Shown one piece after another: positions 3,101 to 60,477 of a DNA stretch of 64,000 nucleotides. Under the pieces are notes generated by a model, which saw only the letters and a list, made by a program, of their open reading frames with translations, searched no databases and was not told the origin of the DNA. Made by a program: the position numbers and the translations under genes. How positions within the stretch are numbered: the stretch's first letter is position 1; each line of letters opens with the position of its first letter. The DNA is from Nereocystis luetkeana (taxonomy: Eukaryota; Sar; Phaeophyceae; Laminariales; Laminariaceae): the NCBI GenBank assembly GCA_031213475.1, contig JARUPZ010000008.1, positions 12,847,393-12,911,392 of the forward strand. The letters run 5' to 3'.

Positions 3101-6100
3101 CCTCGTACTCGGTGATGGATTGAATCGTCATTTCGTCCACAGCCTCTGTGAGGTAGAGCACCTCCAGTCCCTTCGTCGACAGTTTCTCCAGGAAGGGCGA
3201 CTTCTCAACAGCCTGTTAGAATACAACAACAAAACAAATACCGGGTACCGAGGTATTACACCCGTCGCCATATGGAGAAAAATAACAACAACAAAACCAA
3301 CAAGCGGTGAGACCGAAAATGGACACAAAACTCATCTTTGCCAGCTTGGTGTGATACTTCTACTACAGTGAGTGGTGATAATTCGATCGCGCGTTCTACT
3401 CGGCGTGAAAGCTTCTAGACTTCCTCTACAACATATTACAGGTTATAGTTAAATGTATACCTATGGCGTATTAAATGCCCAAACGTAAACCAGACGAACA
3501 AACATAAAATGCGTGAGATATACGAAACATCACGTACATCCACACGAACAAACGACAACAAAACACATGCATCATTATTATTAATATTGATAGTACCAAT
3601 TTATCGTGATTGACGGCACGGCATATCGACTAATATCAGTTTGGGACCAATCTAAATGCGAGGAGTAGCGTGAACGACAGTTCGCCATGTGACGAGGAAG
3701 GTGCCATGTATGGAGGAGGCTTTAAGGAGGGAAGGTGGGGCATTTCTTGACTCCGAGAGATAAAAGAAAGACGATTGCTACTATTAATAGTGCGGTATTA
3801 TATAGAGGATGATCAATCTAATACGTCGGAGTGAAACATGCATGTTGTATTAATAATACGATACATTGTCGAAAGGTACCATAAAAATATATATATCAAT
3901 CAAGTACAAAATAAAGAAACGACACCGAAACGACACCAAAGGCCATGCACTATCAATAGTAATAGTACTCCTTTCTCACGATGAATGGTGCAGCAACTAA
4001 CAACAATTTTGCGGCCACGGAACTTGTGCCTCCCTCCGGCAACCGAAAAAAAGCAGATCATTGACAGCGCGGACCGTAGGTGAAGCGATCATCTTTGACG
4101 AAATTACGGCTTCATGTGAAAGACAACAGCACGCCCACTTATGTTACAGGAGGGGATGACACGAACGAACCAACCGGTACGCAACGGCCCGCGCTCATAT
4201 CGTTTCAGGGAGGAGGGGGGGGTATACTCGACATCGTGACATCATGCATGGCTGTAGTAGTATGACCATAACGCCAGGGAGGGGGGGGGGGGGGGCGTAC
4301 TCATGGTCATGCTTGGCCGTAGTTGTATGGCCATAGACCCAGGGAGGCGTGGGGGGGTAGGGGGTACTCATTTGTTGCTTGCCCTAGTCATTTGACCATC
4401 GTCAACGCACCCTTTTCGAGACGGAGCACCTTTCCTACTCCTACCTTAATAGAGACACCTCCAACATTTGGACACTCAGTACGACTTTTCCCTATCTTAC
4501 ACGAGTGTAGACTTTTCAATCTTTTCCCTTTCGTGTTTCGCCGCCTGTGGACACCATCTATCTCCTAGGATATCGATCGTTTTCTCGGTGATATCTAGTA
4601 TACCAAAGGCGTCCCGTCACATTCGCCCATTTCCCTCATCTCGTCTTTCCAACACATCCCGTTCCTCCTTACACAGTTTCCATTTTCCTACTGTGTGGGA
4701 TCTAACTCTTTTTTACTTTGCCACATGGGCCCATCTGTGCATCTACAGCAGTGCCTCCTCCTCCTCCCGGCTACTGGTATACCTCTGTCTTCTTCCTGGC
4801 AGGTCCAGGTCACCTACACGAAATCGCGGTTTCAGCGTTTTCGTAAGTCGATTGGGCCGTTCAAATACGTTTTCAAATACGTTTTCACTCCTATCCCTCC
4901 GCTTAGAGCCGTGTATGTCTCTCAAGTGTTTTTCCGATTCCACCTTGTTTCTTAGCTCTAGCCGTTCCCTTGTTTGTATCTCTTCGTCTAGTTCTGCCTT
5001 GTACCTCCCAAAGTTCTCGGCGGACATCACCTCTTCTTGGTTCCCCCCTATATCCTTCCATACTCTCTCAACTACGATATCCCACCTTATTTCACCTCGC
5101 CCATTTATTACTTTCTCACATACTGCTCCATCAACTGTGGCTGGCAACCTCTTTTTTGGCATGCTCCTTACTTTATATTGCCGTTTCAACTTTCTCACGT
5201 CTCTATTACGGGGGACCATAGTTAATAGGACCAAATATTGTTAGTAAAAATGGTTAAATATATACCAGGTAGGTTTTTATGGATACCATAGGTTCTATTA
5301 ACTATGGCCCCCCGTAATATTTGTGTCAAGTGGGTACATTCTCAGTTCGGCTCTAAATACTTGACGGGGCATCATACCTCCGTTGACTCCCCAGCGATGT
5401 AGAAGATAGCCTTCTGCCACTCGGGCATGCGGCTCACGTATTCCTCCAAGCTCGTCCACCTTCACGATACGCAAAAAGACACAACGCCGTTCCGATAGGT
5501 GTAACCAACTACATACAGTAGCGGTGCCCTATTCATAGTAGTAAGGCGGTGGTGTGGTGTGCCAGAGAATAAATGACCGCCTTATAGAGGGAAACCGCCT
5601 TGTTCATTCCAGGTTACGGGTGCAGTTCTCCAGTCGCGCCAAGCGGTTTTGACCGCCTTATCGGGGGAAGCCTTCGTACTGCACACGACGGAGAGATGAC
5701 GATGTATCTAAGTTTATTATACGTGTCTACCGTACATTATCTATATCCTAACCTCTCGTTATGATACACCTGTACTCTACTCTAGTGAGCAACATCTCTA
5801 CTGTAGAGTACGTATCTTAGCCAGGAAACACGTGCTACAAATCATCGAGGTTACACGGGTCTCAGCCTTCAACATGAGCTACATCACCGACATCACCGAC
5901 ATCACACAGATCATCTACCCTGAAAGAGCTAGACTGCCAATGTGGGAACCGACTTTCTGTTGGACGTGCGAGCTAAAATAATGCAAAAGCTAGAAGCGAA
6001 GAGCAAAACAAAGGGCAAAGCAAATCACGTCAAAGCCAAGTGAAGAAAAGCAACGCATAGCAAAGCTGAACGCTGAGAACATACAACGCAAAGGAGCGTC

Positions 6101-9100
6101 CGAGTGTGCGTGTACCAGGTATGGCTGTTTCATCGAACGAGGGGGGTGATTGCGCGTGGGTCTTTCTCACTTTCCGTCAGACGTGTTGGTCTTGAACCTG
6201 AGGAGCTTCACAAGCTTGCTCTTATTCGCGCTGTCCTCCATGACGCCGAGCTTGATGCTCTTGCTGAATTCCTCCCAGAAGTTGATGTACGGGTGCTCCT
6301 GAACACAGGGCGGCAACGCATCCAATACACCAAGGGTAAGTCAGCGGTGCACGACAAACAGTAGAAAACGAGACCACAGGTCACACTTAAAAAACAAGCA
6401 CCCCGAAACAGGCCATGATGAAGGCGAAACACTTCCGAAACAGGTCATAATGAATTAGGTTTTAACTAGAAACACTCCTAAACAGGTCATGATTAACAAG
6501 ACGCACTCCGAAACACGTTCAAACAAACAAAACACACTTACAAAACAAATCACAAAAAAACAAAAATCACTCCTCAGAAGGGCAAAACCAAAACCAAAAG
6601 AACGAGTGAGGTGGGGATTTCTGGACGACTATTACGAGGGACCATAGTTAACCCTTTTAGGACCCCAGTCCCGTTTTGGGAGCAAACTACTTATAATTAG
6701 AGTGTTTTGTCCCCACTTATGGGACTGCGGTTCTAAAAGGGTTAATAGAACCTACCAGGTATGGTATACATACAACACCTACACCAGGTATATTTTACCA
6801 TTTATTATTTGGTCCTATTAACTATGGCCCCTCGTAATAGCATATACCAGGGTAGGGTCAAGGTGTGACAGGTGGCTTGGCCGACAAATACCGGAATCGG
6901 TGACACCAAGATTGCCCTGATGGCTGGTATACGTATATTTATATACCTGGTATATAGAGAGAGAGGATGTGTTCGAACTGAACAAATCTCTAGGAGCTGC
7001 ACGAGACGCGCGCAGCATCGTGATGCACACTCATAAAGCTTACCTCGTGCATACCTAGACGCTTCATTCTTAACATGGCACTCGTCGTTTTTTCCGTCGA
7101 AAGGAGTCAAGGTATACCACTCTGTCCTAAATGTTAGCACCACTTGTACATTCATGTCGAATTCAACTTGTTCTTGTAAAGTGGTGTACGACAAAAGCTG
7201 CTTTCGCCGGCTCTCTCACTCTCACCTCCACCTCCAAGTCGACTTCCACTGTTGCCAGCTTACGGAGCATCTCCAGACATTTTCGGACGAGCTTCTTCGC
7301 CATCACTTTTAGCACCTGCACCCCGGAAACGAACGCCATATATCCCACGCCCAGAGCCCCCATCGCCGCCAGAGCAAATACGGCAAAAAACAAACAAACA
7401 AAGGGCGTCCTCGATCCCTTAGACTAATTGGCCAGATCAATCACCTGCAAATAACTCAGGAGAATAAGAAGGGACAACACCATGAAAACCGACCTTAACG
7501 GCGCAAAAAAAAAAACCCAACACGAAAAAAGCGAGAGAGCGTTTCTCCGTTAAGACCGGCGGGGAAAAACCCAATCGTAGGCGGGTAGTGTCCACAATCA
7601 ACAACACGAGCAACGACATCGGGCACTGTCGTATACCTGGTATTACTAGTTGCCAATACGAGAAAACTACGAACCTCTGTAGGTAGCGGGGCCCTTCATC
7701 GCCAAAATACCAGACAACAAATTATATTGAGGGTGTTCTAGAGCAAGAGTAGGAAGATTGACTTGGGGTAATGTCGTGTGGCTTCCGTTTGGAAGCCCTC
7801 AACCCACCCTACTGTGTTCACGCCTGAACACGCCATCGAACTTTTTGAACTCCTGGAGCAGTTCGAGGCTGACTTCAAGCGGTAGGTCGTTCGAGCCAAC
7901 CATGCCTCGCGTGAAGCTGAGGCATCGCGGCAGGAGGTGGTTGAATACTCGAATGAGGACATACAGGTCTACTCCTAACCACTGCAGCCGTACCAGTGCC
8001 TATTGCTTGATGCAGCATAGTACTGGCATACTGCCGACGGCGGCATGAAGCCCTGAATACCTGCTGCAGACCTACCCTATTAATAGGACCTACCGCAGAT
8101 CTACCCCAGAACTACTGCACACTCATACTATACTACCATGTAGATCATAGAGTACTGGCATACTGCAGAATGTACTGCGACCGAACCTTGTGCTCCTGGA
8201 GCATCTCGCGGCTGACGTTAAGCGGGAGGTCGTCCGAGTCAACCACGCCTCGCATGAAGTTGAGGTATCGCGGCAGGAGGTCGTCGAACTCGTCCGTGAT
8301 GAGCACCTTGCGCACGTACAGCTTCAAGCCCCCCTTCTTGTCCTCTGCGATTGCCACGAGCGTCATCGTGTTATTGCAGCGGCGGCGGCAGCGGCAGCGG
8401 TGGCTGAGGTTGCAGTGTTGGCGACGAGAAGCGAACACATCCAGCTACCACCATACCAGGTACACATGTTAATGAGAGGGGTCAAGTCAAGACCCCGAAC
8501 TAGCCCGCCTCTTCGTCACGTTCGTGCATCTTGAGGGCGGGCGATCGACCAAGGGCGTGTCTTAACTCCCACCAAAGAGCATGGGAACGAGCTGAACGGA
8601 ACGAGGCTGTTCGTGGTCATTCGACCCGTTCCTATCTAAAAAAACGTGTTTGGGTCCACGCAGAATCCTGGGCCTCGCCAGGCGAATCGGCACGAACGGT
8701 ATCTTTTGCACATGCAACGGCAACATGCTGTCCGCATCCATCTTCGGTGGTGTCCATCTACATCAAAGAATCTGCTATTTGTTCTCGTTCGGTCGGGCCG
8801 TTCGGTCCTCCCAAACAACGAAAAGGGGAGCAACACTTCCTCTTCCACACTTCCTCTTCCTAGATGTACTGTTTTTCTCGGGCTGCACTGAATCTATTCG
8901 TTTCCCACAACCAATCAACACCAATTCATGCGGCAAATAATATTCCATTCGGCTCGCTCCAATGCTCTCTGGGGGGGGGGGGTTAAGACACACCCTAACC
9001 CCCCCACCCGACTCCCCCCCCCGGCCCCACCCATCCACCTTCTCGAGCGTTGAAGTTCGATCAGGCATGCGCGACAGTGCGGAAAAAATGAAGGAGCTGA

Positions 9101-12100
9101 CACCATTGCCACAGCGGCATGAAGGCCAATACAAGGTGCCCATATCATACCCCGTGTACCCAAACGCTAGGATGGCCTAGCACGCGGCAGTGGGGTCCGA
9201 CGGTCAATCGACGACAATGCCATTCCCCTTTTCTCTCTCCCTCCCCACCTCCCTTGGGGAAGCCATGCCTTCCTCAATACGTGGGCGAGCGATATCCCCC
9301 CTCTCCCCGCCCCCCCCTCCCGTTTCCCCCGAACAGACAAAACCTTTCTGACCACGTGGGCGAGCGACAACGACCCCCCCCCCCCCCCCCTCCGCCCTCC
9401 CCTGAATAAACATGCCTTCTTAACCACGCGGGCGAGCGCTCACCGTAGTACTTATCGTAGAAGTCGTACGACGCCTTACTGGGCGCAAAGAGGATGGACT
9501 TGAACTCCACTTCTCCCTCGGCCTTGAAATGGATCCACGTCGAGGGATCTGAGGAGTCCCCCGAGAGTGACTATGGGACGGTCAAGCATGGGACCAAAAA
9601 GTATGGCACGGTTAGATGTCACGACGCGGTACGGCACATCACGGTAAAACAGCACCGTGAACGGCACAGCAATCCGGTAAACGGCAAGGTACCCCAACAG
9701 GTACAGCAGTGGTGTACCCGTTTCAAGGCCCTAGTACAGGTACCACGGAGGGATATCGGCTTGCCACGAGAAACGCGCGACTTACTGAAAACGGCATCAC
9801 TTTTCAGTGTGGTCAAAGTTAACCCTTTTAGAACCGCAGTCCCGTTTTGGGGACAATGCACTCAAATTCTTAGTGATTAGTCCCCAAAACGGGACAGCGG
9901 GCCCGAAAGGGTTGATGCAATTTTAGAGATAATACCGCGCTTTTGGGCTGGTCTTCCCCCTTTTAGGACTGCAGTCTCTTTAGGTCACAGGTTTGGGGAC
10001 GAACTGCATCGAATTTGAGTGTTTTGTCTCCAAACCGGGACTGCAGCACTCAAGGGCTTGACATGGGTATACCACTGTATGCACAGAGTATGCACGGTGA
10101 AAAACCGAAGCCGGTACAGCGACGGGGACAACGTTGCGGTGCCTGCGGTGCCTCAACAAACTGGTCGGCTCGTCAGACATGAATATCACGATACAACTAT
10201 CTAGATCCTGTATCAGCCGTTACAGGCGTTACGATATACATGATGCACAGGATCTGTACCGCACAGTTCCAACGCGCGCAACATGTGCTGGATCATACAC
10301 AGATCACACCGCCCCCACCAGGCAACATCGCACATACTATGCAGACGAGGTCTGATCATATCATATAGATAGATGAGGGATGTGTCTACCTACTCGAAAA
10401 CATCTAGATCGTGAAATGGGATTCTGGTTCGCCCGATGTGCCAACAGATTCTAACCGTTGAACGCGAACCGTCAAGCATACGCGGACCGTCGCCGCCAAC
10501 ATCACCACCCTCATCATCCCCAAACCAATCACCACCACCGCCACCGCGAACACTGCCAAAACCACGACCACCGCAAACATCACAACCACCACCACCACCG
10601 CCATCACCCCCACCCCCATCATCACCACAACCGTTTTCATCACAGCCACCCCCACCACCACCACCACCGCACCTTGTAGAAGTTCTGGTAATCCTCGTCC
10701 GTGACCTCGTCCTTGTCCCTTGCCCAAATAGCGACGTTGGCGTTCACCCTCTCCCAGTCCTGCGTCTTGACAGTCTTATACTTCACGTCCACCTCCACCT
10801 CTTCGAACTCGTCCTCCTGTCGAACAACGAAACAGCACAACACATACCTTAGTTTGGACGAGAATACTATACCAGGTACAATATTGAATTGGAAGTACAG
10901 GTTTGGACGAGAATACTATACCAGGTACAATATTGAATATGTGCTGGTACCACGGTACGTATAGTATAGTAGTACCAGGTACATATCATACCGTAATATA
11001 GATACTGCTGTACGTGAAACATACAACTCAGCTGTGAGATCCCGAATGGCGTCGAAACCCACCTCTGATAGGATACTAATATTTTAAATAATACATTATA
11101 TGACTGGGTGCACCTACGGTCGACTCGAGGACTGCAGCACTTTCTCTCTTCAATGCCTATTTTTTTTTTTAATTTTTTTTTTTATTTTTTTTTCTCATCC
11201 CATTCATTATCTTCGCACACTCTTCTTCTCTCTCTCCTTCCAACTCGTAACTCAGATCCGGGGTCACATAGCAGGCTCTTCTCCCCCCTTCCCGCTACGG
11301 TACGTGCCTTCATTTTTATCGCGAGAAGATTTCAGCCTTTTCTTCCCTCGTCGACTCGCATCGAATTGTGCCTACCCACGCTGCAAGGCGCTCTCAACAA
11401 TTGAATCCCTTTTTTTATTTTTGCAAATAACGTCAAAGTCCGACCCTCCTGGGGCTCGAACCCAGGACTCAAACTAGTAGAATTAGTAGCGAGGATAGGT
11501 GCCAGGTGCTGGGATGGAGACTCGACGACGAGTCTGGAACGAGATGTAAGTGACAGATGCGTGACGCATCTTGTCATGCATCAGATGGTCTCAGGGCGAC
11601 ACTACCAATCATAGTTCGTCCGTCGACGAAGGATTGTACCGAGATCCTACTGACGAGATCCTAGGAGAGCTTGACGTCACAGAAGTTGTATGATAAAAAT
11701 ACGACGATCTTGCGACCAGGCAGATGAATTGGTGACACCGGCATGGGAGATCCTTACGATGATTTCCGGATACAGGCTACATAATAGGGTACTCCACTGC
11801 TGTAGTCTAAAGTTGATACTACTACTCAGTTGTGAGATACCTGGTACACAACTTCGTCGAAACTACTGCAGCATGGGTATAGGATGCTCTTCATGACAAG
11901 AAAATAATTAGTCTATATTTTGGTACTAAAGCATTTAGCATATGCAACAGCTTCGGGAGTGTTGATAGTTTTCGCCTCATATTTTTCCCCAAACCATGGA
12001 TAACTCCATTTCCTTACTCAAGTTGTAGCCCAGAACGAGCCTGCCAACAACGACACCTAGTACTACTACTATTAATAGCAAGTCTTGAAACAATATTGGG

Positions 12101-15100: not shown

Positions 15101-16922
15101 GAGACAGTAAAAGTGCTGTCGGCCGTGGACTCCCACACATGCTGGTCGTCGTCGTTGTTCTTGGAGATCACCTGCAACACCGACCCCGAGCGCAAGAGCA
15201 AAATCAAGGTAAAAAATCAAAGACATTAGCAGGATTAAGCTGAAGACTCCTCTCCAAAAAAGCTTCGGCAAAAGGCACAACGCTCCGAACGACGATCCGC
15301 TCACCCACCCACCCACCCCCGTACCCGCACCCACCTGCACCCTGTCGGCGACGAGATATACCGAATAGAAGCCAACGCCGAACTGTCCGATGAGGCCGAG
15401 GTCTCCAGTTTCCGTGAGGGCCTCCACGAAGTTCGTCGTTCCGGACCGCGCCACGGTTCCCAGGTTGGAGATGAGCTCGGCGCGGGTCATGCCCACGCCG
15501 GCGTCTCGGATGGTGAGCGTTCGCGCCTCCTGCAAGGGGGGTCGATTGGTCGGTCGGTATTGGGTTAACTAGCTAGCTACAGTAGTCCATTTCGTTGCGA
15601 CAACTGCAAGACAACACAACCACGCTCTCGGCCAATCGCAGCCGGCCACCGCCAGAACAAGTCCCGACGCTCCCCTCTCTCTCTTCATGAACCTGTTAGA
15701 GATGCGCTCCTCATTTGGGACAAATGTTTTGGAATTAGTGGGGAATACTTGCGTGAGTAGTCAACAAGGTTATATAACAACCAATCAACCCACGGCAGGC
15801 CGACCGACCTTGTCAGCTTTAATCCGGATGTCAAGGTCCTTGGCGTCGCCGAGCTTGTCCGGGTCGGAGACGGAGAGGAATCTGATCTTGTCGAGCGCGT
15901 CGGAGGCGTTACTGATGAGCTCCCTAAGGAAGATGTCCTTGTTCTTGTACAGGGAGTTGATGATGATGTCCATCAGCCGGTTCACCTACATATTACCAGG
16001 TACAGCACAAGCACATCAGTACGGATCAGCACAAATAGCACAAACAGCATAGTTTGTATTGTTACATGGCAAACGCGGCAGGTGGCCGTCACTGGTGCAC
16101 CAAAAGAAGGAAGAGCAAGTGCAGTGGCGACTTTACCCCAGCGCTGACATTCCTGTGGTCCCGTGGTATTGGCAGCGACAACCCTAACCCTAACCCTTCG
16201 TTAGATTTTCATGAGACGACCGCCACAGCAGTGCGCCCATCCAACGAAGAGCTCTCAGCAATAACCTGAAGCATAAAATACAAACGATAGCTGCGTGGCC
16301 CGACAACGCGTCCGATTGGCAGAGCTACTTTAGGGCTAAGGCTAGAGCTAGGGCCACAGCAAGAGCCAAGAGAACTACGTAGTGAGCTAGCTACAGAGCC
16401 ATCAGTGCAGGACAGAGGTACTCCTATTAATATTACGGGGGGCCATAGAAAACAGCACCAAATATTGTTAGGCCAAGTATTATGGGAAATTTTTGAGACC
16501 TTATTTCTGGCTTTTTCAGCGATCTCCGAAGCCCAAAAATCAGAACCATCTATTATGGGACAGGAAATCATCGATATTTTTGATCTCAGTTCCTGGAGGG
16601 GGCAAAAATCAGCAAAACCTCTCAGAACTGAGCTCAGTTCTGAGAGGTTTGGCTGATTTCTGAGAACTGAGATTTTTCGTATTTTGGGTGCTACATCTCA
16701 CTACTACTGCCAGCCCACCTATCTACCTGCGCACCTGCCACCCGTCACCCACCACGCGAAAGCATCAAGCCGACGGCGGGCGGTAACTACGGCGCTTGTG
16801 TAAAGAGAGATGGCTTCTCCTTCACATGGAAGCAATATTAGCGGTGGCAGCAGCAGCTGCAACAGCGGCACCAGCAGTAGCAGAAGCAGCAGCAGCACCG
16901 CCAGCAGCAGCAGCAGCAGCAC

Positions 16923-16960: not shown

Positions 16961-18164
16961 GCAGCAGCGATGGCGACTCGATGTCGCCGGCGCTAATCCT
17001 CCCGTGTTTGGATGCTGAAACCACGCTCGCGGCCGCCGCTGCCTTCGCAACGTTTGAAGACGACGAGGAGGACGCTGAGACGCCTGCCGTAAAACGCTCG
17101 CGACGTGCCAAGCCACGCCCAGACTACAGAAAATCAACTTGGATGAAGATGCTACAGGCCGAAGCCAAGCTGTTGGACCCCACCTCAGACGAAGCCACTT
17201 TTATACAAAACCACTTTTAAAAATCAGAACCCATAATACACGTTATATATTTTCACCCACACTTTTCTGTAGCCCGAAAACTCACAAAATAAAAAGACAG
17301 AAATAACGTCTCAAAAATTTCCCATAATACTTGGCCTTAGTACAAATAGGTAAATATATAGTTTTTTTTGTATACCATAGGTCCCATTAACTATGGTCCC
17401 CCGTAATAGTAGCATCCTGGTAGTAAAATAGAGGACATGGCATGCCATATGGCCACGAAACAATTTATTTTTCTCACCATCCGACAGGTGTGCCAACAAT
17501 AATGACGAGACACAGGAAACGCAAATATACCAGGTACCCAGCAGCACCGGCCTGCTCGTAAGAAACTGACTTCACAAAAAACTCAGCCTACACATTTGAC
17601 AAAAAATAGGAACGCTACAAACCTACTCTGGGCCGCAGCTGCAAGAAAGTTGGTCCCTTCTCATGGCCGGCCTGGGCCCAACACACCAAGTCACCACTGC
17701 CACCACACGGTACTACAGACAGTAGAAATAACGTCTTCTCGGCGGCCGAAATAAGAAAATGTAACATGAGAAAGCCTGATTTTGCGCGCGGCCTAATAAA
17801 CAAAGTCGGGTTTCTTTCGAGAGAGCTGGTACTAAATTGTACCTGGTATATTACTCACAACAACAAAAACTACACGAAAAAAACACCATCTACGTACGAG
17901 TGTATGCCTCTGTTTTACTACCGAGGTATTTCTTCCACTCCAGAGTTAATTGAGCCTGTCCTGCGACCACGGACTGCTTTGTATAGTGGCGATGAGTTAA
18001 TGTGAGAACAACGACACATTCAGCAGCTGTATCGTACCGCCTTACCTCGGCCTGGAACTCGAAAGCCTCCGCCCCTTCCTTGACCTTGTCGTCGAACGCC
18101 GCGTCCATGCTGGACTGCACCACCTCATCGCCAAAGGCCAGCCCTCTTCCGCACGAGCCGCCCC
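1..18164 (-). CDS. GRP94: Endoplasmin / GRP94-type Hsp90 chaperone, 16 exons visible, both ends incomplete
   Basis: ATP-dependent Hsp90 of the ER lumen, which folds secretory clients. Sixteen exons on the minus strand, 5' to 3': 18164-18046, 15985-15809, 15529-15335, 15171-15075, 14328-14140, 13523-13483, 10816-10673, 9570-9444, 8344-8187, 7315-7226, 6298-6171, 5459-5378, 3212-3094, 2537-2396, 1894-1830 and 121-1. All junctions are GT-AG and keep phase, giving 1,994 coding bases. Order: N-terminal ATPase ([30 protein letters not shown]), acidic charged linker, middle domain with the catalytic-arginine loop (LPLNVSRE), and the start of the C-terminal dimerisation domain (ANMERIM, NPRHP). The acidic linker, [13 protein letters not shown] and the FEFQAEV lead-in fit GRP94 better than cytosolic, plastid or TRAP1 forms. 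The signal-peptide exon was not found and the ER-retention end lies beyond base 1. The GRP94 assignment is firm; exact exon edges are read by eye. Confidence 0.95.
805..1275 (+). repeat. Dispersed ~500-bp repeat R500, copy 1
   Basis: Begins GGTTGGGTTGGCGTCG. Internal landmarks are CACGTAGTGT, GCTGCCTCTGGAAGTG, CACAAGCGGTTCTTAG-like and ACGGCGCTTCGCGCTTGG; it ends near GGTCATACGACTACGGCC and a C-run. At least seven further full or partial copies occur here, with no coding capacity of its own. Probably a non-autonomous mobile element of unknown class. Copies 1 and 2 lie head to tail in intron 15. Confidence 0.8.
1276..1792 (+). repeat. R500, copy 2 (tandem with copy 1)
   Basis: Same landmarks in the same order as copy 1, diverged by point changes and small indels, directly adjacent in the same orientation. 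Ends in a run of C about 35 bp before GRP94 exon 15. Confidence 0.8.
1830..1894 (-). CDS. GRP94: GRP94 exon 15
   Basis: 65 bp encoding [20 protein letters not shown] then YS. It fits the VVVS.RL...P...V.S.YG.S segment preceding ANMERIM. Acceptor GCGACAG, donor CAG|GTGAGG, phase 2, completed by exon 16. Confidence 0.92.
2095..2310 (+). repeat. AGAGCAA-type purine-rich degenerate repeat
   Basis: Loose reiteration of AGAGCAA/CAGAGC/CAAGAC words inside a GRP94 intron. Similar AGCAAAG-rich stretches occur at 5980-6095 and 13640-13790, also in introns. No stable period, so it may be an eroded short-tandem array. Confidence 0.4.
2396..2537 (-). CDS. GRP94: GRP94 exon 14
   Basis: 47 codons from [18 protein letters not shown] to FKGKITK, linking the middle and C-terminal domains. 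An acceptor 6 bases further into the exon would create a stop, so the CCTGCAG acceptor is preferred. Confidence 0.93.
2848..2957. mobile_element. MITE-2 copy (piggyBac-like, TTAA-flanked)
   Basis: Palindromic element with ends CCCTTT...AAGGG and inner arms carrying GCAGTCCCGTTTTG / CCCCAAAACGGGA. Flanked by TTAA on both sides. TTAA target duplication with ends starting CCC is characteristic of piggyBac-type elements. About 20 bp longer than the 90-bp norm of the family. Confidence 0.7.
3094..3212 (-). CDS. GRP94: GRP94 exon 13
   Basis: [20 protein letters not shown] through LTEAVDEM to ITEYEDKK. Conserved SPFLEKL and VLYLTE..DE motifs. Acceptor TCTAACAG, donor AAA|GTGAGC, phase 2. Confidence 0.95.
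3213..4184. other. GRP94 intron 12, nothing recognised
   Basis: AT-rich intron sequence between exons 12 and 13. Contains one CTATTAATAG palindrome (3781-3790) and a CTATCAATAG variant near 3951. No exon-like frame or known repeat seen apart from these. Confidence 0.5.
4185..4330 (-). repeat. R500, two partial copies (minus orientation)
   Basis: Two successive G-run-plus-CATGCATGG-like 3' ends of the R500 family (near 4205-4275 and 4278-4330), read on the minus strand. Only the last ~70 bp of the element is present each time. Confidence 0.6.
4325..5205 (-). mobile_element. Degenerate LINE-type retrotransposon 3' end
   Basis: Minus-strand frames give ordered fragments of what I take to be a reverse-transcriptase ORF C-terminus: [33 protein letters not shown]-like, [18 protein letters not shown]-like and [15 protein letters not shown]-like. 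They are split by stops and frameshifts. The longest open stretch is 4743-5234. A shorter copy of the same terminus lies at 19632-19740. Family assignment is from recalled resemblance; the repeat relationship is visible. Confidence 0.5.
5206..5317. mobile_element. MITE-1 copy a, with CCAGGTA insertion
   Basis: Near-perfect palindromic element: TTACGGGGGACCATAGTTAA at one end, its complement at the other, loop AAATATTGTTAG. Flanked by TA on each side. Relative to the other copies it has an extra CCAGGTA in the loop at 5265-5271, making TACCAGGTA. Lies in GRP94 intron 12 beside the degenerate LINE. Confidence 0.9.
5378..5459 (-). CDS. GRP94: GRP94 exon 12
   Basis: 27 codons: [18 protein letters not shown] to FYIAGESTE, matching the SLDEYV..M...QK.IYYI.G motif of Hsp90s. 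Acceptor GTGAAG, donor GAG|GTATGA. Confidence 0.93.
6171..6298 (-). CDS. GRP94: GRP94 exon 11
   Basis: [20 protein letters not shown] to [13 protein letters not shown], the conserved FW..F...IKLG segment of the middle domain. Acceptor TGTTCAG, donor AAA|GTGAGA. Confidence 0.94.
6632..6837. mobile_element. MITE-1 copy b, split by a nested MITE-2
   Basis: Ends TTACGAGGGACC and GGCCCCTCGTAA, flanked by TA. The left arm is interrupted after CCATAGTTAA by a complete MITE-2, and the sequence resumes with AATAGAACC. The loop is diverged and holds TACCAGGTA motifs. Confidence 0.88.
6652..6741. mobile_element. MITE-2 copy nested inside MITE-1
   Basis: 90 bp between two TTAA tetranucleotides (6648-6651 and 6742-6745). 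Ends CCCTTTTAGGACC and GGTTCTAAAAGGG. The interrupted MITE-1 supplies the empty-site sequence (GTTAATAG), so TTAA duplication is shown directly. Confidence 0.92.
7226..7315 (-). CDS. GRP94: GRP94 exon 10
   Basis: 30 codons, [20 protein letters not shown] then a Val/Glu-rich tail. Acceptor GGTGCAG. Two nearby GT sites could be the donor; GAG|GTGAGA is chosen because it keeps phase 0 into exon 11. Confidence 0.88.
7844..7981 (-). pseudogene. Decayed duplicate of GRP94 exon 9 in intron 9
   Basis: Reads [16 protein letters not shown] then [20 protein letters not shown], colinear with exon 9 but lacking a few codons near its start. Over the alignable stretch most differences replace the amino acid, and the catalytic Arg of NVSRE is Leu here. 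A possible acceptor (GCTGCAG) precedes it in phase 0, matching the exit phase of exon 9, but no good donor follows. Most likely a dead copy or, less likely, an alternative or poison exon. Confidence 0.8.
8187..8344 (-). CDS. GRP94: GRP94 exon 9 (catalytic-arginine loop)
   Basis: Encodes [20 protein letters not shown] through [20 protein letters not shown]. The Arg in NVSRE is the middle-domain arginine that contacts the ATP gamma-phosphate in Hsp90s. The donor is weak (AAG|GTTCGG). A decayed duplicate lies about 200 bp downstream in the intron. Confidence 0.95.
9190..9443 (-). repeat. G-rich imperfect tandem repeat abutting the exon 8 donor
   Basis: On the minus strand the start of intron 8 repeats three times a unit beginning near CGCTCGCCC(A/G)CGT, then TTGAGGAAGG-like sequence, then a long G run. 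The first unit overlaps the splice donor region of exon 8. The runs of 4-17 G could form G-quadruplexes in the pre-mRNA. Confidence 0.7.
9444..9570 (-). CDS. GRP94: GRP94 exon 8 (middle domain)
   Basis: 42 codons plus one base, [19 protein letters not shown] to YDFYDKYY. The segment [15 protein letters not shown] is the conserved middle-domain strand. Acceptor CCCATAG, donor GTGAGC. Diverged copies of the donor-flanking intron sequence recur twice further into the intron. Confidence 0.94.
9580..9740 (+). repeat. Degenerate ACGGCAC / GGTACGG motif cluster
   Basis: Loose reiteration of (T)ACGGCAC, GGTACGGC and CACGGTAAA words in intron 7, adjoining exon 8. Resembles the ACGGGAC clusters at 19.9, 23.0 and 62.5 kb in style but not exact sequence. 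Confidence 0.4.
9823..9911. mobile_element. MITE-2 copy
   Basis: Ends CCCTTTTAGAACCGCAGTCC and a diverged GCCCGAAAGGG. Left flank TTAA, right flank mutated to TTGA. Loop CTCAAATTCTTAGTGATTAG matches the family. Confidence 0.8.
9958..10056. mobile_element. MITE-2 copy, degenerate
   Basis: CCCTTTTAGGACTGCAGTC at the left, CTGCAGCACTCAAGGG at the right, with the family loop AATTTGAGTGTTTTGTC. The outer flanks no longer show TTAA. It lies 47 bp from the preceding copy, which may have been a preferred target region. Confidence 0.65.
10470..10672 (-). repeat. (GGT)n tract at the start of intron 7
   Basis: The plus strand is a (CAC/ACC)n trinucleotide array, so the pre-mRNA begins the intron with GTGCGGTGGTGGTGGTGG. 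ORFs read through it on either strand are pure repeat translations. Confidence 0.85.
10673..10816 (-). CDS. GRP94: GRP94 exon 7 (linker end, middle-domain start)
   Basis: 48 codons from [17 protein letters not shown] to DEDYQNFYK, including [13 protein letters not shown], the start of the Hsp90 middle domain. The donor AAG|GTGCGG runs straight into a (GGT)n tract of the intron. Confidence 0.94.
10854..10949 (+). repeat. 48-bp tandem duplication containing TACCAGGTA
   Basis: GTTTGGACGAGAATACTATA then CCAGGTACAATATTGAAT occurs twice in succession with almost no change (10854 and 10902). Both copies carry the TACCAGGTA motif, so the duplication came after the motif arose. Confidence 0.85.
11158..11486 (-). 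mobile_element. tRNA-derived SINE, copy 1 (5'-truncated head)
   Basis: Minus orientation. The poly-A tail appears as the T-rich stretch 11160-11192; the body includes GGCTGAAATCTTCTCGCG and GCGAGTCGACGAGGGAAG. The head retains box B (GGTTCGAGCCC) but breaks off before box A. Inserted in GRP94 intron 6. Confidence 0.88.
11550..12800. other. GRP94 intron 6 remainder, no gene seen
   Basis: No convincing exon-like frame. Holds TACCTGGTA (11838), CTATTAATAG (12069) and, a little further on, a short CCCTAA tract (12875-12890). Confidence 0.45.
13300..13445 (+). repeat. Imperfect inverted repeat arm flanking exon 6 (left)
   Basis: Contains a C-rich stretch ending TCAAACCGCGGTCTCC. Its reverse complement is recognisable at 13905-14080 (GGGAGACCGCGGTTTGATCC, and ACTAAAAC.AGCAT..TGAGCC). 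The 41-bp GRP94 exon 6 lies between the two arms. Confidence 0.55.
13483..13523 (-). CDS. GRP94: GRP94 exon 6, 41-bp exon in the acidic linker
   Basis: Encodes [13 protein letters not shown] after a split Gly. Acceptor GGTATAG, donor GAG|GTGAGC. Phase matches both neighbours, and the acidic content suits the charged linker. Because 41 is not a multiple of three, skipping it would shift the frame. Confidence 0.85.
13905..14080 (-). repeat. Imperfect inverted repeat arm flanking exon 6 (right)
   Basis: Partner of 13300-13445, with about two thirds of positions matching in the parts I aligned by eye. Confidence 0.5.
14140..14328 (-). CDS. GRP94: GRP94 exon 5 (N-domain end and acidic linker)
   Basis: Starts [12 protein letters not shown], runs through [15 protein letters not shown] and ends in a run of glutamates and alanines. 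Acceptor TTTTTCAG, donor GTGAGA, phase 1 at the end. A decayed copy of its first third lies just upstream, at 14410-14466. Confidence 0.93.
14410..14466 (-). pseudogene. Decayed partial duplicate of GRP94 exon 5 start, with acceptor
   Basis: After an acceptor TTTTACAG the frame reads [16 protein letters not shown], parallel to [18 protein letters not shown] of exon 5. Homology continues into the intron side of both acceptors, where the plus strand of each reads CCAACAACG. It lies in intron 4, directly upstream of the real exon 5. Confidence 0.65.
14613..14712 (+). repeat. 25-bp tandem repeat, four copies
   Basis: Unit CTCCTTGCACTTTAGTTGTG then GTCAA at 14613, 14638, 14663 and 14688, with single-base differences (AGC, TCG variants). 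Lies in GRP94 intron 4. Confidence 0.95.
15075..15171 (-). CDS. GRP94: GRP94 exon 4 (end of ATPase domain)
   Basis: 32 codons plus one base: [15 protein letters not shown] to DPRGNTL, with the split Gly completed by exon 5. Donor is GTAAGG. The NTLGRGT junction is diagnostic for GRP94-type proteins. Confidence 0.95.
15335..15529 (-). CDS. GRP94: GRP94 exon 3 (ATP lid and nucleotide pocket)
   Basis: 65 codons joining directly onto exon 2. Contains DAGVGMT (DxGxG nucleotide-binding motif), the lid GTVARSGT and GQFGVGFYS. Acceptor CTTGCAG, donor CAG|GTGGGT, phase 0. Confidence 0.95.
15809..15985 (-). CDS. GRP94: GRP94 exon 2 (ATPase domain, start)
   Basis: 59 codons, from [16 protein letters not shown] to DIRIKADK. 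Carries the conserved [14 protein letters not shown] helix, with the catalytic Glu and Mg/ATP-binding Asn of Hsp90 ATPases. Acceptor TATGTAG, donor AAG|GTCGGT, phase 0 at both ends. Confidence 0.95.
16615..16650. repeat. 36-bp perfect palindrome
   Basis: Left half AAACCTCTCAGAACTGAG, followed immediately by its exact reverse complement with no spacer. Lies inside the 974-bp element, upstream of its ORF. Could form a cruciform or act as a binding site for a dimeric protein. Confidence 0.95.
16810..17220 (+). CDS. Transposase-like N-terminal ORF with poly-serine tract (136 aa)
   Basis: Residues 10-50 are almost all Ser, encoded by an (AGC)n trinucleotide run. Residues 51-97 hold an acidic patch (FEDDEEDAE) and a basic patch (KRSRRAK). 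The C-terminus reads [12 protein letters not shown] then [14 protein letters not shown] before a stop. That ending resembles the stretch at the start of PIF/Harbinger-type DDE transposases (KS.W..ML....DP.S); this is recollection, not a search. The catalytic domain is absent, consistent with an internal deletion. Its place between MITE-1 termini is the main support. Confidence 0.5.
18046..18164 (-). CDS. GRP94: GRP94 exon 1 of those visible (pre-N region)
   Basis: Follows an acceptor ending ATGCAG and stops at GAG|GTAAGG. It encodes a variable segment ending [11 protein letters not shown], which in GRP94 lies just before the ATPase domain. The exon starts in phase 1, so at least one upstream exon with the start codon and signal peptide is missing. 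I found no convincing hydrophobic start on the minus strand between 18.2 and 22 kb. Confidence 0.85.
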
Positions 18165-18569: not shown

Positions 18570-18578
18570 TACCTGGTA
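18570..18578. other. TACCTGGTA scar-like motif (example)
   Basis: Sits in a GATAGATA run, reading as TA + CCTGG + TA. One of 27 exact TACC(A/T)GGTA sites: 5263, 6113, 6753, 6944, 7634, 8454, 10870, 10919, 10973, 11838, 15994, 17528, 17840, 18570, 23128, 23196, 23698, 24874, 24881, 25460, 30180, 30187, 37423, 46838, 52692, 53620 and 60028. Confidence 0.85.
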
Positions 18579-22999: not shown

Positions 23000-23480
23000 T
23001 GAGTGAATCTTGGACGGGTTGTGTCGGCGGGATGGTAGACGGGACGGAACGAAAAAGAAAAGTGTGAATAAGTAAAATCGTACTGGAAATAGAGATAATT
23101 ATTTGTTTTCCGAATTCGGGGAGACGATACCAGGTATAATATTTTCCGAATTCGGGGTGTGGGCAAGAAAAGGAAAGTGTGATTAAATAAAATCGTACCA
23201 GGTACTGGAAATAGAGGTAATTATTTATTTTCCGAATTCGGGGAGACGAAATCGGGGAGACGAAATGGGCAGCGCAAGTGATTTTCTCGACGGACGGGAC
23301 GGTATCGTACAACCGGAGTGGGTTTCTCGACGGGACGGGGTGGTAAAGTACAACGAGGCGGAGTTTGGTGGCGGGATGGGACGATAGGTATATAATTTTT
23401 CGACGGGGCGGAACGACGGGACCCGTTTCACGACGGTTTTACAGTCCCGTTCCGCATTACCGCCGCTCCCGTCCCGTCAG
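23000..23480 (+). repeat. Degenerate ACGGGACGG cluster with repeated GAATTCGGGG units
   Basis: Two ~80-bp subunits (about 23048-23125 and 23168-23250) share AAATCGTA..CTGGAAATAGAG and TTTTCCGAATTCGGGGAGAC. The second has TACCAGGTA where the first has TA. Followed by CGACGGGACGGG words up to 23480. Confidence 0.75.
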
Positions 23481-23759
23481 TCAATATACCGTGATATGCC
23501 TTGATTTTTTGTACGAGTTGTTTTGTCACCACCACCCAGGCTTCCTGCCCACTTCAGATCCTGGCCGGGTTGTTCAGCTAGCGGCACTACATCGAGATGA
23601 AACAGCTGTGGTAGAGAAACACTCGGCGAATGCCCAAGCAATGACCGCCGTGTGCAACATATCGGCCGCCTACATACTGCTGAACAGCGTACAGCAATAC
23701 CAGGTATCAGTGCGTACGGCAGCACAACAGCAGTATCTGCGGTAGGCTGCCTTACGAGT

Positions 23760-25300
23760 AGACAGTATTAATAGAAGGGAGTACGAGTAGGGGAGTAGGG
23801 CGTGTCAAATCTGTGGCGGCAAGATCTGGCCAAGAGAACGTCCGGCAAACACCCAATCTCAGGACGTCCATGGCAAGCTCCACGGATTGCCAGGAATATC
23901 TACTGGCAGCACCCACCACTGTAAAGCATACGTGCCCCTACGAGCATCCGCCACGCCATAGTGACGGGGGTAATCTAGGTTTCAAGGACGAGGACTGAAT
24001 CGAAAGTTCACGGCCGGCTACCGGTTGTGGAAAGGCTTATGATGCTGTAGATTGCAACAAGAAGAAGCTCGTCGATAGGGGGCACTCACATTGGGCAGAG
24101 GATTGCAGTGCGGCGGCAACGCACAACGTGAAGAATCCTGACCTTCTCATGCTCGCTGTCGGTACTGTCCAACGCTTGGGGTACCGAAAGCAAGGTGTCA
24201 AGCACGAGTAAAGTGCTTGTTCTTGCCAGCCCTTGGGTCCGAAGGTTTCTACAGCCTTGGTTGAGTCTTACAATATCGGGGGTTTCCGAGAAAATACTTG
24301 ATTTTAATGGTCCAAGAACCCGTCTACATGGCAAGCGCTGATTGGCCCACGATTTACATAAAAATTAACACTGCTTTCACTGCTGCTGTTTCAAAGAGCC
24401 AAGGGTCCAAGGCTCGAACAAACAACATCGTACACGGCACCACAGGTGGCAGATCATACAGCAGTCGTACGGACTCGTAGCTCTATACAGCTCTGCCAAA
24501 CACACGAGGAGATGGGCTAGGAAACCTTGTCGGACAGAAGGAGTTGCGTACCGTACGAGTGTAACATACAAGAAAACACACCCTGGGGGAGGCGTGGTCA
24601 CCCCTTGATGCGAGGAATCTTTACCGAGGCAGTTTTTTGTGCTTGTGGCGCCTAAAGCCGACCCTCATCCTACCCACACCCCAACCTAACCCTAATCACA
24701 ACCCGACCCCCTAGCCAGTGGACAGTTCTAGGACACTATGTTTTGTATACGGTAAAACAAGACAGATAGATGCTCATTGCAGCACAATATCGGCGAGCTT
24801 ACGAGAAGCAGGCCGTTGTCGGGTTACAAGGAATAATGACTGAACAAAACTCACCGTGGAGTACGTATTTATGTACCAGGTACCAGGTACGTACGTACGA
24901 ACAGTACTGCCATGAACGCTCCAGAGAAAGGCTGTCCTCTGGACAGAAGGAAAGCAATACCCGTGGGTAAGTAGATATCTCCTACCACTGACCAGGTGCA
25001 TACATACATACGTACCCGGTTACACACAGTATGACATGACAAGGGGCATCTTGTGCCTTGTTCCATGGCATGTCACGCCGGACAATAAAAACACGGCGAT
25101 TTCCAAGCCGGCCGCCCCGGAAGGCACACTTAAATTAAATGAGGAACGAAGGAGCGTGAGGGCAAAAAAGTTGGAGCCGGAAGGCAGAGTGGAAGGAACG
25201 TAGGGTGGGGTGGGAAGACGGGAGCCAGACAGGTGTCGGAGGATTTGGAATAAATAAGAGTCGATCGGAGATCTACACATTTTATTTCCACGATTATTAA
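23760..25300. other. No gene recognised
   Basis: Only small unsupported ORFs. Contains a double motif TACCAGGTACCAGGTA at 24874-24889. Confidence 0.4.
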
Positions 25301-36699: not shown

Positions 36700-38450
36700 C
36701 CAAATTGCCATCTCTGCGGTGTGCTTTCCCCCGTGTGATACGTTATATACTACGTTGCCGTATTTGCAGGTGTTGTGATGGCATCGTATTAGCCCGTTAC
36801 GATATCATCCGTCGGTCGCCTAACAAAACGTTATGGTGGTGTGTTGCCTAAACATTGGCAGCAGTATAGCGTTACTGTGCTAGGGTCGGCAGCCCATTGC
36901 GCGTACCGTAATGTTAAGGTGTCGGCTGGATTCCTACATGTCATCGTAGCACACGTTCGGGTGGTAACATACCTGCACAATGTGTCACTAACCTCATGTT
37001 ACTGCTGTGTTAGCTCGTTCGCAAATGTTGATGTGACGTACAACGTTATGCCGAGCAACATGGTCGGCGCGGCCTGTAGCGAGTAACGCCCCGTAGTGAC
37101 GATAGCGGAGTTCCTAGTGATTGCCGTAGCGAACGTTACGCAAATAACGTACATGCTCAGTAAAACACCTACAAAACGCCAACAAAATGTTCCTGTGTTA
37201 GCTCGTACGCACACCTACAGTAGGTGTGACATACAACGTTAAGCAGTCTACTGATGTTGATAGCGATGAATGCCATTTTACCGTAATGTCGTATCGATTT
37301 AGTATGTAAGCATACCTTTACGTACTAAGTACGCATAACACGCACTATTCATCTATCGTTATCAATCTATCTGGCAGTGGATAGCAATAGAAACGACGAC
37401 GACTACTCGTACGTGGTGCCGATACCAGGTATGTGAGGCAAAATGGAAGCAGGTATCGGTACCATACCGTTAAATTCAAGGTCGGGACACTGCGTACCCC
37501 TCGCTATCAATAGGTTCGCCTATTGAGCAGGTGCTCGTTGGTGCTCACGTATGTTGAATGCCGACATATACCGGTAGAAGAATATCAGGTGTATCCCTGA
37601 CAAGCGCGATGAGAGACAGAGAGCAAGGCTTGTGCCTCGCCGGAAAACCCCCTGATATTCCATCTAGGATACGTCTCCCAAGTACTAAAAGTATGATCCC
37701 AACACCTGACCCCAGGTAATTACCGCCCTTTCGGCCTCATTTTTCGGCCTCATTCAAAACAATACCGTAACACTAGCCCACTCTGATGAGCCGTAAATGC
37801 AAAAACACTATTATAGAAAAAACATGGAAACCCCGATTCCACGAACCAGAACATGTGTCGAAGATGCGGCCTCTCTGATCCCACTTACACACCTCTAAAC
37901 GGCAAGGTTACAGAACCGACAAGATACACAGAAAAGGAGAAAGGAAGGCCTGACCGTAAGGGACAGGAAATAGTAGTCAACTTAAGCCATCGCCATGCCA
38001 CCCCCAAGTGGGGTGGGGCGAGAACGTGCCTACGGAGAAACGAAAGGTTAGCGCGAAAAGCGAGACGGCCCTCCGTGCTCCAGGAAGAGTAGCCAATTTA
38101 ACCCAGATCGCCTCCGGCTCCCGACCGGGGGGGATCGGCAGGACGAATAGGGAAAAAAACACGGAACACGCCAAAACCCCCCTAAACCCACACCAAAAAC
38201 TCCGGTAGCGTGTCCTGTGCCACAAATTAGTGGCCCCATTTCCTAGACCACCCCGAAACTGAGCGGGGGGGTCGGCAAGATCAAATACGCTATAACCATC
38301 CCCAAGCCGGACCAACAAAGATATTCACGAAGCGCTCTATCATGCCGAGTAGGAAACCCCCGACCCGAAAACTCGGAAAACGTCAATTGTGTAAGACGAC
38401 CCCCCAAAGCCCAGGAAGGTGACAAACAAAAAAATGTGGAGTGCAGTCGA
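36700..38450. other. No gene recognised
   Basis: AT/GC-mixed sequence with many GTACG and AACGTTA words; one TACCAGGTA at 37423. No frame with splice support. The 3' end or LTR of the gypsy element could lie near 38.2-38.4 kb but no terminal repeat could be identified. Confidence 0.4.
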
Positions 38451-46574: not shown

Positions 46575-46890
46575 TGCCCCGACGCCTCCACCCGCAGTAT
46601 CATAGTACCCCAACTGCTGACCCTCTCGCCACACCGGAAAAAAAAATCACCCCATCGGCGCTGTCATCCATGTACAACTTCACCTCACAAGCGGTGCTTA
46701 GTAGGGTGTAGCTCACCCTCGAGGCGACTCCCCGTACACCTCACGGCGCTTCGCGCTTGTTTCCAGCAATGCCTGCAGAAAATGCGGCGTTCTCCGCCCC
46801 GGCACTTTAGGATGGCAACCCCCTCCCTTCTGTATTATACCTGGTATATCAATAGGCTGGGTTGGCGTTGGTTGGGGACGACGCTGTAAA
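46575..46890 (+). repeat. R500, internally diverged copy
   Basis: CTGTCATCCATGTACAACTT, CACCTCACAAGCGGTGCTTA, ACGGCGCTTCGCGCTTG and a terminal GGCTGGGTTGGCGTTGGTTG. Contains TACCTGGTA at 46838. Confidence 0.7.
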
Positions 46891-52050: not shown

Positions 52051-53950
52051 CATGACAACTGGGGCAAGGAGATCAAAAGGAGCATATATATGCGCAACCA
52101 CGGTGGACAAAAGTAGGATCGAAAGGGCAGACAGAGTAGCAAGGCACCAGGCCAACTGCAGTATAATAAAAAATATTTTAAGCTATTCGTGCCTCCAACT
52201 GCTGAAGCTGGTTCGAGCGTGAACTTCCTTTGCTTTCGGTACTGTTTTGGGGGTTCGATCCTCCTTCTTGTCTTGTTTCGTGGGTCCATGACGAACCTGT
52301 CTTGTTTGTGGTATCTGATGCATCCTCTCCGGGTCTTCGTGGGTGGATGGTGAGCCTGCGTTGTTTGTTTTGTGTTATCGGACGCATCATTTTCCGGGGG
52401 TGGGGCATGGTTGGCGAAATCAGGTAGACAAGGTAGCAAGGTACCAGCCCGACTATTACTAGTAGGTAAGTCCTGTCTATTCTACTCGTAGCAACGTTTG
52501 CTGCGGCTGCCCTGGAGGATGCTTTTTGATATGCTCGCGTGTTGTTGCCCTTGGTTCTGTCTTGCGATGTTTTTATGTGATGGCATTGCTTCTCTAGTTT
52601 GTCCTGGTACTTTCTGCTATTGATAGGTGGCTCGACCCCTGCTTTTCCTTGGTTTACTGTATCTGGCGTATTATTGTGACCACAGAGCTTGTACCAGGTA
52701 CGAGTATCTTCAAGAATGTAAAGAACCAGCAAAGCCAAAATCAGGTATACCTGTTGCATTTGAGCCCAAACCGGTTATACACTGAAACCAAGTAAAAAGA
52801 ACATCATGAGTGATGCTTTTACCCACGAGAAATCACACACTTTTTGATGTTTTACTTAGGGTATAGGTTCTACTTGGACTAGAGGGCCATCAGGCTTCGC
52901 TCGTCTCTCGACGGTGGCGCCGAGAGTAGTTATTCTGGCACCCCCCCCCCCCCTGTTGCCAGCTTTGACGTTACTCGACCATCCTCGCGGAATCTCCTGC
53001 TCGGCACGAATTATTTGGCCGTAGCAAGCTTGTGACCATCTCGACGCGAGGCGGGGCAGACGAACAGCCGTGTGTGTCCACGATTATATATGACTCCTGT
53101 AATAATAATAATACCGGAAGAAAACATCTGAGTACATCCCAAAAGAAGAAAGAGTGCAACAAGCGTACGCAAGAATGCATAAATACGTACCTACCCGGTA
53201 CGTATTATGAACGAGTACGTACATAGTTTGTACACATACTTTGCAACCGATGGACCGCAGACGCATGCATGCGCAGAGGAAACACAGTGTACGTAAGGCC
53301 TCTCTGATTATTTCAAAAGTCGGCAAAATCAGTTGCAAGTTGAAAGCTGCAGCAGACAGAGAAGACAAAAGCAGGCATGCCTGGCCGTTTCGAATCAAAT
53401 CAGGAACGATGCCAACCTGGCCAATAGCAGGGGTCCTGGCCTCTGATTTGTTGCGTGTTTTTAGTATCTAAGTTTGGCGCAAAGATGGCCAGGTGTAGCC
53501 GATTTTGAACGAAACCCTTGAAAAAAATGGCAAGGGCTCTGGTTGTTGTGCTGAACGTCGACGGGTAGAACACGAAACGGGTTTCATGTGAAACACACAC
53601 CTGGTACATGCATATTAATTACCAGGTAACTGGTATGAATTTTCTTGGTTATTTTACACTTTTTCCACACTTCGCGCGTCGATATCTAGGTAGTGTCACG
53701 CTATTAATAGTATCCGTACTGGTTCTCGATAACCTCAAGCACGACACGAGCGTATGTATGTTGATTCCGGAAGAACCGCACGGAGACACGCCAAAACACT
53801 GCGTGCCGGCAACCAGGTAAACGCGTTCCGGGTGCATCACACCGCAATCGCATACCCCAGAGCCTTATCACCGTCGGAGGGGTATAGAAAATCGTACACG
53901 ACGTTCCCACCGGAGAGACAACGGTAGGTAGCAGAACCCCTAACCAACTA
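52051..53950. other. No gene recognised
   Basis: Contains a diverged copy of the 48-kb repeat (52390-52560), TACCAGGTA at 52692 and 53620, and CTATTAATAG at 53701. The segment 53690-53740 is related to 54745-54790. Confidence 0.45.
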
Positions 53951-54055: not shown

Positions 54056-54057
54056 TA

Positions 54058-59862: not shown

Positions 59863-60477
59863 ATAAGACGGTATGAATAGGGCAGATCTTGGAGATACTG
59901 CGGTAAACATATATATGCTGTCTCGAGTGAAATCGTGAATGGGCCGATAACCGCCCCATCCACAGCCCATTCTATACACAACCTTGCTCGGCTTTGCTCC
60001 TCGCGGGATATATATATAATATATATATACCAGGTATATGTATCACCCCACTGCTGCTGCTGCTCCTGCTGGTGCGAGTACACACGAATCTCTAGACCAT
60101 AACGAGCCGTGGGGATAAGCACCACGCCCTACGCGGCAGATAAACAGTGTTTGGTTCGAGATGACACCTGACACCTGACATCCCAGGGCGCCCTGACGGC
60201 CACGAAAGTTGGGGAAAGTGCGATGGATGGTGGACGTCACGGAATCTGCGGTGAGGCCGACCCGGACTGCAAAACCAACGCAGCGCCTCTGCCGGAATGT
60301 CTTGTCACCATACGTGTCACGGTGGGGTTAACGCTGACGAGAAGGTTAGCGATAATGACGGGGCAGCCAACGGGACCGTGCCCCCCCCCCCCCCCCGCGG
60401 GGAGCCTTCGTCGCAATTTGTTTCACGGCTGGAGAGCGCGGCGACGGCGTGCGAATGCGGTTTTTTTGTATGCCACA

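Follow-up and report, generated by a model that had tools for sequence, protein, structure and literature searches.

A TA-bounded palindrome, TACCWGGTA, recurs throughout the genome of the brown alga Nereocystis luetkeana and is probably a footprint left when a TA-targeting transposon was excised

To our knowledge, transposon footprints have usually been studied a few at a time. The Tc1-like element Minos leaves a footprint formed by the TA plus four terminal bases, and the A/T centre of the TAC(A/T)GTA footprint left by the Tc1/mariner elements Sleeping Beauty and Frog Prince is explained by a mismatch. The Sleeping Beauty excision footprint appears as C(A/T)GTA in the accessible part of one source (PMC3878927), and lengths of 2–4 bp are quoted for Tc1/mariner footprints in the accessible part of another (PMC7913693). 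An account of the transposable elements of Ectocarpus, as far as its text was available, gives 17 Mariner-Tc1 families, and the word 'footprint' occurs 0 times in that main text (PMC12477816). The sequence described here, TACCWGGTA (W being A or T), was studied starting from a 64,000-nucleotide stretch of N. luetkeana DNA (the window). Like the footprint of Sleeping Beauty and Frog Prince, it has a doubled TA and an A/T centre, and would be a short palindrome derived from element ends; the element-derived bases would number five instead of three and, whereas the parent elements of the former are known, TACCWGGTA is known from ~180,000 genomic scars alone. Minos indicates that an overhang can exceed 3 nt in the Tc1-like group, although it contributes four bases and has different ends; the Minos-resembling word TACGAGTA is also over-represented here. 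The footprints of Stowaway MITEs and Osmar elements, as portrayed in the portion of PMC4561436 that was available, are similar in their 2-bp TSD, in being element-derived and in their repair by end joining; those elements are known, whereas TACCWGGTA is near-uniform and its element was not found in the sequence scanned.

The 27 exact copies that the initial annotation had reported in the window were all confirmed in place (Table 1), against 0.34 expected by chance from shuffles of the window; every one is exact, but those at 10870 and 10919 belong to the two units of a duplication, 49 bp apart, and represent one insertion that was copied. Once homopolymers and CAG-type repeats were set aside, TACCWGGTA was the most frequent 9-mer of the window, where each of its one-mismatch neighbours occurred 0–4 times. 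The over-representation claimed on that basis was upheld when the word and its reverse were counted genome-wide, the result being far from expectation: in the 465-Mb assembly the word occurs 182,395 times and the reversed-word control 1,744 times. This amounts to ~1 copy per 2.5 kb, and the bases added by the inserts total ~1.28 Mb (182,395 × 7). At round-number coordinates on ten contigs, ten 10-kb stretches unselected for the word were sampled; each held 2–12 copies, and TACCWGGTA is therefore not a local feature. The centre letter was A or T in 144 of the 148 occurrences of TACC-N-GGTA in a 307-kb sample. The excess of one-mismatch words equalled 0.40 of the exact count; scar divergence would be roughly 5% under a model with a single age, or 0 to ~11% under steady accumulation. 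The finding is real, genome-wide and large in scale, and a non-exhaustive literature search, judged by title, returned no printed report of the motif.

Table 1. Positions in the window of TACCWGGTA scars, of the copies lacking an insert with which they were compared, of MITE-1 and of the second palindrome
Feature	Position	Strand	Basis
TACCAGGTA in MITE-1 copy (5204-5319)	5263..5271	+	exact word; filled versus empty MITE-1 copies
TACCAGGTA scar	6113..6121	+	exact word
TACCAGGTA, 7-bp indel at TA versus repeat copy	6753..6761	+	exact word; repeat alignment
TACCTGGTA scar	6944..6952	+	exact word
TACCTGGTA scar	7634..7642	+	exact word
TACCAGGTA scar	8454..8462	+	exact word
TACCAGGTA, unit 1 of 49-bp-spaced duplication	10870..10878	+	exact word
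TACCAGGTA, unit 2 of 49-bp-spaced duplication, not independent of 10870	10919..10927	+	exact word
TACCAGGTA scar	10973..10981	+	exact word
TACCTGGTA scar	11838..11846	+	exact word
TACCAGGTA scar	15994..16002	+	exact word
TACCAGGTA scar	17528..17536	+	exact word
TACCTGGTA scar	17840..17848	+	exact word
TACCTGGTA scar	18570..18578	+	exact word
Sister repeat unit with empty site	23053..23127	+	repeat comparison
TACCAGGTA scar adjoining repeat unit 23053-23127	23128..23136	+	exact word
TACCAGGTA, filled site; sister unit near 23080 is AATCGTACTGG (empty)	23196..23204	+	repeat comparison
TACCAGGTA scar	23698..23706	+	exact word
Tandem double scar TACCAGGTACCAGGTA, 2 of the 27 copies	24874..24889	+	exact word
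TACCTGGTA scar	25460..25468	+	exact word
Tandem double scar TACCAGGTACCAGGTA, 2 of the 27 copies	30180..30195	+	exact word
TACCAGGTA scar	37423..37431	+	exact word
TACCTGGTA scar	46838..46846	+	exact word
TACCAGGTA scar	52692..52700	+	exact word
TACCAGGTA scar	53620..53628	+	exact word
TACCAGGTA scar	60028..60036	+	exact word
MITE-1 copies	25301-25414, 53949-54060, 54056-54167		
MITE-1 copy without insert, empty comparator	32015..32124	+	MITE-1 alignment
MITE-1 copy without insert, empty comparator	34832..34943	+	MITE-1 alignment
MITE-1 copy without insert, empty comparator	35053..35163	+	MITE-1 alignment
TATTAATA, first eight	2689, 3579, 3782, 3848, 8078, 12070, 16425, 20327		
TATTAATA, last eight	23766, 25295, 47351, 49476, 49745, 49941, 53702, 54509		

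Elsewhere in the window, an HSP90-like exon (15074–15568, minus strand) matches HSP90 structures; its best named homologues, which rank after four hits without names, belong to Phaeothamnion and Discosporangium, with 88% identity across 41% of the query, and this one exon would by itself make the host probably a brown alga or a close relative. An open frame at 39589–40209 (minus strand) was read by eye as a putative retrotransposon integrase. About five telomere-like TAGGGT units lie inside the chromosome, at 26591–26621. A ~330 bp repeat is present at 11179–11484, 47444–47779, 50743–51084, 59129–59864 (here as an inverted pair of two copies) and 60518–60846, in both orientations and with pairs mostly 90–96% identical.

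There is good support for CCWGGTA having been inserted at TA. The two filled/empty examples offered by the initial annotation, the MITE-1 copy at 5204–5319 and the pair AATCGTACTGG / AATCGTACCAGGTACTGG near 23080/23196, are both real, and its proposal that CCWGG is placed at a TA, which is doubled, was borne out by repeat alignments, by MITE-1 and by a search for collapsed sites. Repeats were aligned pairwise in a 235-kb sample, 71 kb of which (the C1 loci) had been chosen for containing TACCWGGTA. Indels of 7 bp were found at 24 places, and at 11 of these the indel was TACCWGGTA under a strict TA-duplication test. When these 24 rows were merged by reading, 13 distinct TACCWGGTA insert sites were obtained (12 exact, one with a substitution), the other 7-bp indels falling at six distinct sites, four of which had one common repeat-borne sequence; the ten unselected stretches alone gave four motif sites versus two others. 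Scored in this way, 7-bp indels were mostly TACCWGGTA at TA, although 8-bp indels were commoner (48 places versus 24). Indels of 6 and 5 bp were also seen in the repeat alignments. Once TACCWGGTA was collapsed to TA in the 307-kb sample, 18 of 144 sites had a relative that aligned gap-free, six of them being comparisons of a tandem with a single copy, and TA was at the junction in all 18; when other TA-N5-TA words were collapsed as a control, a gap-free relative existed for 18 of 996, with TA at the junction in 15. MITE-1 is a near-palindromic sequence of ~110 bp, bounded by TA, that begins with TTACGGGGG and finishes with CCCCCGTAA, its termini being TT...AA. Among the 21 distinct copies of MITE-1, 17 lacked the insert and four carried it, one of the four with a substitution and the rest exactly; two different TAs are occupied, and the three inserts at a common position may reflect common descent. 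The TA is doubled around the scar and not doubled at the empty site, as expected of a footprint.

The flanks were analysed at 110 unique non-tandem sites against a background of all TA sites, both flanks being pooled after reverse-complementing, which makes the chi-square profile symmetric by construction. Chi-square values reached 52 at −1 (A or G), 24 at −2 (T), 20 at −5, 46 at −6 (A) and 66 at −7 (A/T); they were 0.6–6.4 from −8 to −12, 6.8 at −13 and 9.0 at −14. The target signature is R-TA-Y flanked, at a distance of seven bases in either direction, by A/T, and A/T at both −7 and +7, counted separately from the pooled flanks, was found in 72 of the 110 sites. Genome-wide, G/C stood at both of these positions in 7,338 of the 182,395 motif sites (4.0%, a count including tandems, whose own structure puts T or A there) compared with 399 of the 1,744 reversed words (22.9%); dropping up to ~31,800 tandem members would, by arithmetic, move the 4.0% to ~4.9%. 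CTAG was the target at 0 of 132 TACCWGGTA sites, whereas TACWGTA and a second TA-bounded palindrome, TATTAATA, displayed no −7 preference and favoured CTAG ~7-fold. The target preference of TACCWGGTA is symmetric and TA-centred, again as in a footprint; it fits an enzyme contacting both sides of the TA and points to one that is dimeric and transposase-like. The evidence is good that a protein whose target is defined and symmetric carried out the insertion at TA.

The palindrome TATTAATA, which occurs 93,112 times in the genome versus 10,689 for its reverse, provided a positive control. It resembles TACCWGGTA in being a TA-bounded palindromic insert with very many copies and a target signature of its own; it differs in its other letters, in its target (T-A-C before the TA) and in that its element is present in thousands, the ends of MITE-1 having 36,387 exact matches genome-wide. 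The insertion-site signature of TATTAATA is shared with MITE-1: before the TA, T, A and C were found in 26, 27 and 23 of 40 distinct MITE-1 end flanks, and at 63, 55 and 47% in the flanks of TATTAATA. Of the 11 copies of MITE-1 for which both ends were read, only 3 sit in CTAG, and the match is therefore one of position preferences and not of one fixed word. One TATTAATA was found as a 6-bp indel at TA in the repeat alignments, and an empty relative with TA existed for 5 of 60, some of these lying in simple CTA repeats. Since end letters and target context agree, TATTAATA is best read, judging from sequence, as TA + TT + AA + TA, the putative excision scar of MITE-1.

With a probability of about 0.7, TACCWGGTA is a footprint left by the excision of a cut-and-paste, TA-targeting DNA transposon (Tc1/mariner/pogo-like) with CCWGG ends. 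This reading, already favoured in the initial annotation, remains the best fit because the target signature is symmetric and TATTAATA is tied to the resident MITE-1 by its ends and target context; no CCWGG-ended element was found in 307 kb or at the pogo-like loci examined. We infer excision itself from the scar, the target signature and the TATTAATA control. A dimeric transposase would insert the element at W-A-NNN-T-R-TA-Y-A-NNN-T-W, doubling the TA; staggered cuts inside the element would leave each flank with the TA and the terminal CCWGG single-stranded; and the ends would anneal via CC/GG, leaving a central W:W mismatch at which repair would pick A or T, ligation then giving TACCWGGTA. 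The CCWGG overhangs, which can pair at four of five positions, are probably self-annealing 5-nt overhangs, and their annealing would account for a palindrome of fixed length, for its A/T-only centre and for tandem centres that are mostly independent. In a variant of this scheme, a 3-nt CCW overhang would be joined through one base. An overhang of 5 nt is longer than the 2–4 bp given in the available part of the Tc1/mariner source cited above. The element would depart and the scar remain; since an excision adds a scar without adding a copy of the element, few elements could reach this scar number by accumulating scars slowly over a long time, a handful of long-active ones being enough, by arithmetic, for very many neutral scars.

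Real end joining usually yields more varied products. The near-uniformity of TACCWGGTA is the strongest reason for proposing annealing ends, and also speaks mildly against ordinary end joining. Candidate minor products in the 307-kb sample were TACCGGTA (13 versus 4.7) and TACC-N2-GGTA (16 versus 5.6). Close full-end joins with filler between CCWGG ends numbered 477 genome-wide at spacings of 0–30 versus 267 at spacings of 40–70, the reversed controls giving 326 and 328, respectively; part of this excess looks like decayed tandems. Such joins had been considered as proof of two full overhangs, on the strength of three close pairs in the sample, and were set aside given the weak genome-wide signal.

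A scan of 235–307 kb for elements with TA/CC...GG/TA or CCWGG inverted ends found none, only chance-like pairs, repeats and scar pairs. Half-sites numbered 46 + 52 in the 307-kb sample against ~70 by uniform-composition arithmetic, and repeats and mutated scars explain some of this surplus. An inverted pair at 47980/48897 of the window was rejected as parent as it lies inside a longer fold-back repeat (47909–48968). In that repeat, the TACCAGGCGG half-sites are internal and not at its ends, and a 133-bp tandem occupies 48876–49146. Among transposase domains, DDE_3 (PF13358) had no match in the genome, DDE_1 (PF03184) had 28, and Transposase_1 (PF01359) had 0 in a search whose control was likewise silent. 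Seventeen of the 28 DDE_1 places (12 cut loci and 5 further places) were read for ends, and CCWGG ends were not shown at any of these 17: four (L059, L062, L063 and L065) had CAGTACCGGCC-type ends, L061 had CGCGACA ends, L057 and L058 had other inverted repeats, and the remaining 10 had no convincing ends within the stretch read. The pogo-like element at L062:1602–3584, with CAGTACCGGCC ends, directly adjoins a copy of TACCAGGTA. These pogo-like elements share the TA target with the TACCWGGTA scar, but their ends are CAG, not CCWGG, and the scar expected of them is TACWGTA. TACWGTA sits in a CTAG context and fits both the resident pogo-like elements with CAG ends and the Sleeping Beauty footprint as far as the published source was available. 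In a 135-kb sample, TACGAGTA occurred 35 times versus 5.3 expected and TACAGTA 51 times versus 24.7 expected; both may be further transposon footprints.

A doubtful alternative is that there was no ordinary parent, and that a TA-specific DDE enzyme, host-retained or of very low copy number, long cut and rejoined TA sites, writing the self-complementary CCWGG. If true, this 5-bp sequence would be the smallest known insertion, adding a frameshifting 7 bp per ~2.5 kb. We consider it unlikely that a former transposase or recombinase joined the 5-bp CCWGG directly into a staggered TA cut, no larger element ever being involved. The lack of a parent element in the sequence scanned, the highly uniform product and a target signature that implies an enzyme-guided insertion step would all agree with such direct joining; against it, TATTAATA resembles an ordinary footprint in matching MITE-1 ends and context, as does TACWGTA with its CTAG context in a genome that has pogo-like elements with CAG ends. 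We know of no enzyme that joins such a 5-bp piece directly at TA.

Tandem scars bear on whether the word was instead multiplied by slippage, gene conversion or segmental duplication. The tandem TACCWGGTACCWGGTA occurs 15,917 times genome-wide versus 2 for the control, with centres AA in 4,800 pairs, TT in 4,739, AT in 4,522 and TA in 1,856 (the last by subtraction). Pure slippage predicts AA and TT centres only, and an array made by it would have identical units; the centres differ in 6,378 of the 15,917 pairs. Same-centre tandems (9,539) nevertheless exceed what independence predicts, and slippage may account for at most ~20% of tandems, mixed pairs being taken as half of all independent pairs. 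The tandem pairs are mostly separate events with mostly independent centres, and the suggestion in the initial annotation that tandem forms fit repeat events was right if it is taken to mean that insertion recurred independently, not mainly that slippage occurred. The T-then-A order of centres is 2.4 times rarer than A-then-T (1,856 versus 4,522). A mild preference for A at target position −3 matches this shortage in direction, its strength being below that needed. No triple tandem was found in viral contigs. Spread by copying can claim the same-centre excess and the window pair that was duplicated together with its flanks; however, the flanks of separate copies are unlike beyond the short symmetric signature, mixed-centre tandems are frequent and repeats have empty sites at the matching position. 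It is very improbable as the general origin of TACCWGGTA, and already largely excluded.

It is just as hard to credit that TACCWGGTA is a protein-binding site or other functional word kept by selection: it is palindromic and sharp, one-mismatch neighbours being rare, but it occurs about once per 2.5 kb, is present in MITE copies and originated by whole 7-bp insertions rather than point mutation. Programmed elimination of TA-bounded germline sequences during development, the sequenced tissue carrying rejoined scars, is extremely improbable, for although TA-bounded excised elements exist in Paramecium, we know of no programmed DNA elimination in brown algae, and the one-mismatch excess fits heritable scars decaying with age.

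Read as an excision footprint, TACCWGGTA would be a case in which one near-uniform footprint is a dominant word of a whole genome, its target signature being readable from ~180,000 natural events. Given the ratio of scars to elements, one may ask how a single element could transpose so frequently while leaving so few copies behind. The word draws attention to a transposase whose cut would be unusual, apparently 5 nt long and self-annealing, and would be rejoined almost cleanly, and the scars would form a fossil record of excision, datable and mappable, that could serve in studies of break repair.
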